Positions 31,003 to 43,305 of a stretch of 54,689 nucleotides of DNA are shown piece by piece; within the stretch, counting starts at the first letter, position 1, and each line of letters opens with the position of its first letter. Position numbers and translations under genes: made by a program. The stretch spans positions 1-54,689 of the forward strand of contig CAIUPH010000005.1 of assembly GCA_903901015.1 (NCBI GenBank), given 5' to 3'. Source of the stretch: Candidatus Bathyarchaeota archaeon (lineage in GTDB: Archaea > Thermoproteota > Bathyarchaeia > Bathyarchaeales > Bathycorpusculaceae). Below the pieces are notes generated by a model. It made no database searches and was not told where the DNA came from. It was given only the letters and a program-made list of their open reading frames with translations.

Positions 31003-31088
31003 TCCTACACCACTTCTCAGAAAACTATGAAAAGTAAGTTATAAAGCTATGCCAACTCTCTCGCAGAATTGAAATAAGGAAAAGTGTT

Positions 31089-31202
31089 GCCAGCTTTCCC
31101 AGGTTCACGTGGCCTAAGACCACACTACAGCTGGAAACGGAACACGGTTTAACTTCTGAGTTCGGGATGGGATCAGGTGGAACCCGTGCCCTTTGACCGG
31201 CA
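31089..31202 (-). rRNA. 5S ribosomal RNA
   Basis: Read on the minus strand, the gene has the diagnostic core CCCGAACTCAGAAGTTAA, the GGGCACGGGTTCCACCTGAT arm and a terminal helix TGCCGG/CTGGCA. The ends are set by that helix and may extend 2-4 bases each way. It is not next to 16S or 23S in this window. The minus-strand TATA at 31231-31236 lies about 30 bases before the 5' end. Confidence 0.93.
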
Positions 31203-31230
31203 GACGAAACATAACTGTTCAACAATCCCA

Positions 31231-41061: not shown

Positions 41062-41120
41062 TTAACGGTTTAAATTCTTTTTTCCGTTGAAGGCATCCTC
41101 GGTTTCCGTCTTTCTTATAG

Positions 41121-41179
41121 AAAGTTAAGTTTATCAAGCTTTTCTTTGTGATTTTAGTTTATGCTTTTTTTCTTTAAAC
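41121..41179 (+). repeat. Box2 repeat, copy 1
   Basis: AAAGTTAAGTTTATCAAGCT is followed by a T-rich stretch and TTTAGTTTATGCTTTTTTTC. Nearly the same 59 bases occur at 43247-43305, and a shorter version at 42333-42374. It runs into the ATG of the reading frame at 41161. Confidence 0.6.
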
Positions 41180-41581: not shown

Positions 41582-41774
41582 ATCGACTTCTAAAGGTATG
41601 CGGTGTTAAAAAAAGGCCAATAATCTTTTATTTTCTTCTTATAAACCTTCCTTTAACAAGGTAATCGTTTGACTTTCAGTTTAAATTGTTTTCAGGAAAC
41701 CAATAAGAAAAAAGCAAGGGTGGATTGAACCTACATGCCGGTGGAGACATCACCCGAACAACCCCTTTTTTTAA
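41582..41774 (+). repeat. Direct-repeat unit R2, copy a
   Basis: This 193-base unit has an upstream block (ATCGACTTCTAAAGG), a TATA box (TTATAAA, 41639-41645), a 53-base stretch (41652-41704) identical to 42199-42251, and a stem GGGTG (41718-41722)/CACCC (41751-41755) with a T-run at 41766-41772. It may be transcribed as an RNA of about 100 nt. It accounts for the gap 41563-41863. Confidence 0.7.
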
Positions 41775-41863
41775 TCAAGTACAATTGATTTAAAACCTAC
41801 AATCAAAAAAAGCAGAAAACAATAAACTTATAATCCAAATCAAACCAATAAAAACCCAAGTAA

Positions 41864-42085
41864 GTGAATAAAATGGACAGAAAATTAAAAACTATACCCG
41901 AACCCAAAAAGGGAACCCAAACCGTTTTCAAATCTAAAACGACGCCAGTAATAAAAAGCAAAGGCGGTAACACTAACTATCTATGTGGCAATTGTGGAGC
42001 AAAAATAGGCGAAACTATCATCGAAGGAAAATTCAAGAATGTTGTGTTAAAGTGTCCAACCTGCAACCTCTACAACGAGATATAG
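41864..42085 (+). CDS. Small zinc-ribbon protein
   Basis: A 73-residue protein (start GTG 41864 or ATG 41873). The N-terminal half is basic and low complexity (KLKTIPEPKKGTQTVFKSKT). The C-terminal half carries two Cys pairs (CGNC and CPTC) in YLCGNCGAKIGETIIEG and VVLKCPTCNLYNEI, which is a zinc ribbon. It could bind nucleic acid or a protein partner. It lies alone between repeats R2a and R2b, like a single-gene cassette. A TATA-like TTATAAT at about 41828-41834 suggests a near-leaderless transcript. Confidence 0.7.
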   Translation: MNKMDRKLKTIPEPKKGTQTVFKSKTTPVIKSKGGNTNYLCGNCGAKIGETIIEGKFKNVVLKCPTCNLYNEI

Positions 42086-42130
42086 TTTAGGTGACGTTTC
42101 TGCTCAAGTAACAGAAACTTAGAACCGCCG

Positions 42131-42316
42131 ATCGACTTCTTGAGGAATGCAGTGTTAAAAAAAAACCAATAATCTCTTATTTTCTTTATATGAACCTTTT
42201 TAACAAGGTAATCGTTTGACTTTCAGTTTAAATTGTTTTCAGGAAACCAATGAAAAAAGCCGGGGTTAATTTGAACCCATCTAAAGTTGAGATGTAACCC
42301 GCATATCCCTTTTTTA
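42131..42316 (+). repeat. Direct-repeat unit R2, copy b
   Basis: This copy matches unit a over its whole length: ATCGACTTCTTGAGG, TATA-like TTTATATG (42185-42192), the identical 53 bases at 42199-42251, and a stem GGGTT (42263-42267)/AACCC (42296-42300) with 28 bases between arms, as in copy a. The changed base pair (G-C to T-A) keeps the stem. Confidence 0.7.
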
Positions 42317-42332
42317 GTTAAAAAACAACAGA

Positions 42333-42374
42333 CAGTTAAGTTTGCCGAGCTTTAATATTTTTTATCTTTTGATG
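42333..42374 (+). repeat. Box2 repeat, copy 2 (degenerate)
   Basis: CAGTTAAGTTTGCCGAGCTT followed by a T-rich stretch and ATG resembles box2 at 41121. It ends at the preferred start codon 42372 of the next gene, so box2 may be a promoter-leader module. Confidence 0.4.
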
Positions 42375-42986
42375 TTACGTAACTTACTTATCGGATGCTT
42401 TTTTATCGAGTATACAGTACTTAGTATTGAATGTTTTGTGCGTGGAAAAATTAAATATCCAAAACTCTCACTGTTCATAATAAGCGTAATCTTAGTATAC
42501 TTTCTTTTTTCTGGTTTAGCATACAAACCCTTGCATGATGCTCTTGTATTCATGGGGTATTTTGGAACTTTTCTTGCGGGTTTACTATACCCCTATGCAT
42601 TAACTTCGGCGGCTGGCACAGGAATATTGCTGATTCTCGCGAAAGAACAAAACTTACTCTTAGCAGGAGTTATAGCTGGAATTGGCGCTTTAATAAGTGA
42701 CATTATCCTATTCCTTTTTGTCAAACATGGCTTTAGTGATGAGGTACACAAACTCTCAAAAGAAACAGTTGTTCAAACTGTTAATAAATGGATACCGGAT
42801 TCTGTTAGAGTATATTTGCTTGCGATCTTTGCGGGTATGCTAATTGCCTCTCCGCTTCCAACTGAAATTGGCATCATGCTTATGACATCAATAAAGAATA
42901 TGTCAGTCAAGAAATTCGTAATCATAGTGTATATCTTGCATGCAAGCGCAATCTTCATAATTCTTCTAATTGGCAACACTATATAA
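42372..42986 (+). CDS. Multi-pass membrane protein, small-multidrug-export/DedA-like
   Basis: A 204-residue membrane protein with about six helices. It has LLIGCFFIEYTVLSIECFV at the start, YFGTFLAGLLYPYALTSAAG, GVIAGIGALISDIILFLF and IASPLPTEIGIMLM near the C-terminus. The loop with Gly-Thr and Pro and the late SPLPTEIG motif resemble the putative small multidrug export/VTT-like group. The ATG 42372 is chosen since the box2-like sequence precedes it; TTG 42342 would add ten residues. It is flanked by repeats R2b and R2c. Specific substrate unknown. Confidence 0.65.
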   Translation: MLRNLLIGCFFIEYTVLSIECFVRGKIKYPKLSLFIISVILVYFLFSGLAYKPLHDALVFMGYFGTFLAGLLYPYALTSAAGTGILLILAKEQNLLLAGVIAGIGALISDIILFLFVKHGFSDEVHKLSKETVVQTVNKWIPDSVRVYLLAIFAGMLIASPLPTEIGIMLMTSIKNMSVKKFVIIVYILHASAIFIILLIGNTI

Positions 42987-43082
42987 TCCGGAATTTTTAA
43001 TTACCTGGGCATACTTCAGAAAATTTTGCCAAAAAGACGAGACGTACAGGAGATAAAAGCTTCACCGCCTGTATTTTTCTGA

Positions 43083-43204
43083 TTGTGGTTGCCTCGACCC
43101 TATAGCCCGTGGAGACTTCACCCGCATTCCCATTTTTTTATTTGAACCTTCCTTTATCAAGGTAATCGTTTAGAGTCAGTTTAAATTCTTTTCAGGAACT
43201 CATT
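43083..43204 (+). repeat. R2-related repeat, copy c, with parts in changed order
   Basis: Here the stem-like part (CCCGTGGAGACTTCACCCGC, with T-run 43134-43139) comes first and the GGTAATCGTTT...TTTCAGGAA block (43161-43197) comes after. The latter matches copies a and b with several changes. It lies in the 331-base gap 42987-43317, which has no gene and also holds box2 copy 3. Confidence 0.6.
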
Positions 43205-43246
43205 CCCAACAGTTCCCGTTCTTAGTTAATTCTTTAGAACTTGGAC

Positions 43247-43305
43247 AAAGTTAAGTTTATCAAGCTTTTCATTTAAAATTTAGTTTATGCTTTTTTCTCT
43301 AAAAG
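43247..43305 (+). repeat. Box2 repeat, copy 3
   Basis: AAAGTTAAGTTTATCAAGCT, TTTAGTTTATGCTTTTTTCT: nearly identical to 41121-41179. Here no start codon of a gene follows on this strand; it lies downstream of the FnIII gene. Confidence 0.6.

Follow-up and report, generated by a model that had tools for sequence, protein, structure and literature searches.

Which kind of genetic element places direct repeats on both sides of single small genes in a Bathyarchaeota genome? In the window, the whole stretch of 54,689 nucleotides of contig CAIUPH010000005.1 that was analysed, three repeat units (a, b and c) accompany a gene for a zinc-ribbon protein and a gene for a membrane protein. The initial annotation had offered three readings of these repeats: boundaries of integron-like cassettes, an RNA family or a tRNA-derived repeat. 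The repeats themselves are real, and each unit is a composite of two repeats, an element here called END and a narrower, separate 53-base block. The array consists of the following features:

41582 to 41731, plus strand: gene-less repeat copy a, with leader, 53-base-type block and a T-arm-like half at the end
41652 to 41704, plus strand: 53-base block of copy a, an exact 53-base identity with 42199 to 42251
41720 to 41769, minus strand: END site a (model R1, E=7e-11; matrix score 49.5 bits)
41864 to 42085, plus strand: zinc-ribbon ORF of 73 aa, in the unit starting at END site a
42131 to 42277, plus strand: gene-less repeat copy b, about 87 % identical to copy a
42199 to 42251, plus strand: 53-base block of copy b, exactly identical to that of copy a over 53 bases
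42265 to 42314, minus strand: END site b (model R1, E=8e-10; matrix score 37.4 bits)
42342 to 42986, plus strand: membrane-protein ORF of 214 aa, the only gene from END site b to END site c
43088 to 43137, minus strand: END site c (model R1, E=1.5e-7; matrix score 33.9 bits)
43140 to 43201, plus strand: 53-base-type block of copy c, 86-97 % identical to the other copies

The homology of copies a and b ends at the T-arm; beyond it the sequences differ. In both, the block precedes END, while in unit c the block follows END directly after its T-run. Unit c had been described as rearranged, and so it is, yet its order is not random. The 53-base block has five clear copies in this genome and a few in relatives; in copy a it contains the TATA-like TTTAAATT, a putative promoter. 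A 57-base direct repeat (86 % identical, 41114-41170 and 43240-43296) brackets the whole array; it loosely resembles the 53-base block and may be a promoter-like element in common use. The zinc-ribbon ORF gave a weak LITAF-like/TFIIB zinc-ribbon match below the Pfam cut-off. For the membrane protein no Pfam family was found, and no relative of its gene was confirmed in a search of genome contigs. The array looks old and decayed, its repeats resembling degraded copies of a joining site. The sole RNA family detected in the window was a 5S rRNA gene (31085-31204, minus strand; Rfam RF00001, 69.1 bits).

Read on the minus strand, END consists of an A-run, GGGG, TGCGGGTGAYRTCTCCAC, a variable spacer of about 8 bases and a T-arm-like GGGTTCAAATCCC. 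Site a has this layout of A-run, arm, spacer and T-arm-like half, while the right half of site c is degenerate and not tRNA-like. In shuffled sequence (300 kb) no score of the END matrix exceeded 8 bits. The initial annotation's T-runs and its GGTTCAA on the minus strand were recovered, as were its two stems with exactly 28 bases between the arms, in a (GGGTG 41718-41722, CACCC 41751-41755) and in b (GGGTT 42263-42267, AACCC 42296-42300). The covariation seen between the two did not extend to the family: for 17 aligned END sites RNAalifold returned three weak pairs, none compensatory, and no supported helix. A structured small-RNA family with its own promoter and a 3' end at the T-run would explain these local stems, the TATA-like sites and the T-run after a C-rich stretch. 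With no conserved or covarying helix in the 17 sites, no Rfam match for the repeats and a broken T-stem, we regard such a family as the least probable of the explanations discussed here, and this guess of the initial annotation was abandoned.

END is widespread in one order. A sequence-only covariance model detected it in 95 of 101 genomes, the window's own counted, at E <= 0.5, a threshold at which single weak matches in some genomes may be due to chance. Up to 54 copies per genome were present, 13 in the window's own genome, and the family spans about 50 genera. When the phylum was sampled evenly and the threshold set to E <= 1e-5, 14 genomes gave matches, and 13 of these were members of that order. 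Three weak matches outside the order (E 2e-6 to 1e-5) were found in G142, of another family in the same phylum. The exact pattern of arm and T-arm, searched in 84,980 prokaryote genomes, occurred in 34 stretches, 33 from Bathyarchaeota (one of them titled MCG-6) and one from a contig labelled Hodarchaeota (L334, JAEOTQ010000152.1). The latter holds three END-like sites in one orientation and without A-run, a result of either transfer or mis-binning. No viral contig contained the exact pattern. A viral attP was also considered, and a 17-base pattern matched 20 viral contigs, none of which scored as an END site. The literature searched contained no report of this site family.

When right halves of END were compared with the tRNAs of genome G023, they often corresponded to tRNA 3' ends (Leu, Ala, Pro, Cys, Arg and others), and the match ran from the inner T-stem through the acceptor. 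In the best case, with tRNA-Leu(cag), 27 bases were identical without a gap. The guess of a tRNA-derived repeat was correct in that the 3' end of a tRNA forms the right half. A large number of right halves, e.g., those of site c and of one zinc-ribbon copy, do not resemble a tRNA. In four loci (L284, L285, L288, L292; genomes G097 and G094) many END sites have the non-tRNA right half GGTTCAAACCCGATCTGAGCACAAAACTGTCGC in common, which suggests a second class of unit end. Among 102 END sites with the T-loop in register, the T-stem pairs 49-65 and 50-64 were formed in 61 % and 44 %, in contrast to 100 % of 46 tRNAs. The outer pairs are often broken, hence the T-stem has no tRNA DNA on its left side and the junction lies within the T-arm. 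Tail identity and broken T-stems together point to site-specific recombination at the tRNA T-arm.

At eight loci (L353, L342, L100, L088, L093, L298, L339, L364) an END site with matching tail lies 1-8 kb downstream of an intact tRNA on the same strand, so that both ends carry the tRNA 3' end as a direct repeat, the boundary of tRNA-integrated elements. These layouts are attL/attR arrangements. For pairs of tRNA and END site within 6 kb, tails matched in 12 of 20 cases with the tRNA upstream on the same strand versus 2 of 14 in other arrangements. Essentially one gene and no integrase separates tRNA-Arg from the END site in L353 and L342. Stacked sites were observed as well, three with Leu tails below tRNA-Leu in L088, and two each in L100 (Arg) and L093 (Leu). 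An integrase gene is located directly beside the tRNA in L093 and L364, a fragment of one in L298. The window array lacks this direct repeat; ARAGORN found no tRNA in the window. Ordinary tRNA-targeted integrative elements, serially inserted and then decayed, would account for the attL/attR layout, for the integrases beside some tRNAs and for the serial tails at L088, L093 and L100, and cases of tandem integration are known from archaea (PMC8371274); END sites would then be attR scars and single-gene units deletion remnants. Against this speaks that most sites lie at a distance from any tRNA. Such END sites were the majority in three complete genomes, where 7 of 46 sites had a tRNA upstream on the same strand within 10 kb, with 4.1 expected. 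Accretion at nearby tRNAs only does not account for the site positions in these genomes.

Away from tRNA genes, END sites commonly form arrays, mostly spaced by 0.5-2 kb with mostly one gene between them. Neighbouring sites within 3 kb had the same orientation in 49 cases and opposite orientation in none, which points to a process with polarity and speaks against random dispersal. Contents of neighbouring units differ and so, often, do their tails; simple tandem duplication is insufficient since the units differ in content, and decay of ordinary integrative elements is likewise difficult to reconcile with it. The genes between sites had no preferred orientation relative to the site (24 versus 20). 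Many units consist of one gene and no integrase. The cargo assigned by Pfam comprises a DeoC-type aldolase, aminoglycoside acetyltransferase, M3 peptidase, ketopantoate reductase, AsnC-type regulator, AAA ATPase, methyltransferase, PAP2 phosphatase and zinc ribbons; several cargo genes have no Pfam-named function. We also considered a MITE- or REP-like repeat, dispersed over intergenic regions, whose position beside genes would be fortuitous. END sites are short, multicopy and intergenic, and homologous exchange between copies could yield mosaic breaks. The uniform polarity disfavours such a repeat, and neither right halves taken from the tails of many different tRNAs nor attL/attR layouts with matching tRNAs agree with it, thus we hold it to be very improbable.

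Units appear to have moved between loci. Among 136 internal ends of homology between loci, 24 (18 %) coincided with an END site, compared with 3.0 % expected at random positions, an enrichment that is approximate because the loci were fetched for holding sites; 19 of these 24 had the shared DNA on the A-run side. The window's zinc-ribbon unit is present in four species, at loci that are unrelated apart from it, and starts at the site in every case. In G018, G003 and G023 the gene lies in 310-420 bp of homology starting at the site arm, beyond which the copies diverge. What lies beyond the arm is tRNA-like in two of them (G018, G003) and not in G023; no clear site marks the unit's other end. 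Window copies a and b repeat this pattern, common DNA up to the T-arm followed by divergence. A second zinc-ribbon unit between sites is common to G003 and G018, and two genomes of different genera (G042 and G085) share 773 bp at 97 % from a site onward. Intact single-gene units were found again at unrelated loci of several species, which speaks against deletion remnants, and we consider decayed ordinary elements unlikely. Polar arrays, mostly single-gene units and mosaic breakpoints at the sites bear out the first guess of the initial annotation, that of cassette boundaries.

As the initial annotation had stated, the window encodes no integrase; a Pfam search identified four PF00589 matches in its own genome, all on other contigs. 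One of these four, a protein of 355 aa that also matches PF16795 (G000:C4), lies about 1.3 kb from a double END site, and G023, G005 and G018 contain 16-22 PF00589 proteins each. A single site-specific integrase clade was considered and rejected; the integrases near END sites fall in no one clade. In three genomes integrases are situated just upstream of tRNA-His (L313, L314, L327) and face the tRNA 5' end, an arrangement unlike the END-linked elements. The initial annotation had named repeats found only here, a stable gene order and the lack of a recombinase as speaking against it; this combination was not what we found.

END sites are probably the attachment sites of integrase-dependent, integron-like cassettes of Bathyarchaeia that target tRNA T-arms. 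A circular unit would carry an attP composed of A-run, arm GCGGGTGAYATCTCCAC, spacer and a tRNA T-arm with the 3' half of the acceptor. A tyrosine recombinase, either unit-encoded or acting in trans, would recombine the conserved T-arm core (GGG-TTCAAAT-CCC) with its counterpart in any of numerous tRNA genes or, alternatively, in an END site already present. The tRNA would be restored by the unit's own copy, and the displaced tRNA tail, fused to the arm, would become an END site. Insertion after insertion could then build up arrays of co-oriented cassettes, mostly with one gene each, comparable to those of an integron. Recombination at END sites is inferred, and the same applies to the circular molecule, the precise point of crossover, the action of an integrase in trans and activity at present. 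Several observations count against this model: the many right halves without resemblance to a tRNA, the remoteness of most END sites from tRNAs in the three complete genomes, the zinc-ribbon unit's lack of a clear site at its other end, and integrases near sites that do not belong to one clade.

Three known systems share features with this family. Integrons and CALIN arrays, archaeal integrons included (PMC9668308), consist of co-oriented recombination sites separated by short single-gene units, with cargo of mixed function and, in many arrays, no integrase nearby; the polar array with short ORFs required of integrons is present in END arrays in orientation and spacing. The analogy drawn in the initial annotation therefore holds for the organisation and not for membership. 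END has no conserved single-strand fold of the attC type, its right half is a tRNA tail and tRNA genes themselves are targets, and its cassette genes lack the generally uniform orientation of integron genes. END arrays are not canonical integrons, as fold and gene orientation both disagree. Archaeal tRNA-integrated tyrosine-recombinase elements (PMC8371274, PMC6563490) likewise have a direct repeat of the tRNA 3' end, an intact tRNA at one end and a displaced tail at the other, in some cases with an integrase beside the tRNA, and insert serially. Among END units, in contrast, are ones of about 1 kb with one gene and no integrase, while the smallest reported thaumarchaeal cryptic element has 2.6 kb and encodes an integrase; moreover, the END arm is common to many tRNAs and most sites are away from tRNAs. 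In bacteria, additive genomic islands with tRNA-tail repeats and tycheposons have cargo stacked beside a tRNA with repeated copies of its last ~20 bases, and share metabolic cargo with END units (PMC10872708). They are tied to one or a few tRNAs, and tycheposons measure 4-200 kb (PMC10872708), whereas END units are short, have a common arm and are spread over the chromosome. Since additive islands are known in bacteria (PMC10872708), the END system is not categorically new. We tentatively propose, at somewhat less than an even chance, an archaeal gene-capture system distinct from integrons, in which universal tRNA T-arms are the platform and a fixed arm plus tRNA tail is the cassette site, so that single genes can be collected, stacked and spread by integrases across Bathyarchaeia. 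The END cassettes, mostly single-gene, look like an integron-style collection of genes by Bathyarchaeia.

Bathyarchaeia are abundant and largely uncultured, and their routes of gene gain are poorly known. The END family provides a concrete, searchable route, with single genes for an aldolase, an acetyltransferase, an oligopeptidase, regulators and zinc ribbons bounded by its sites. The system would link tRNA-targeted integration to cassette collection, and with it one could test whether ordinary elements that integrate at tRNAs can give rise to integron-like systems.
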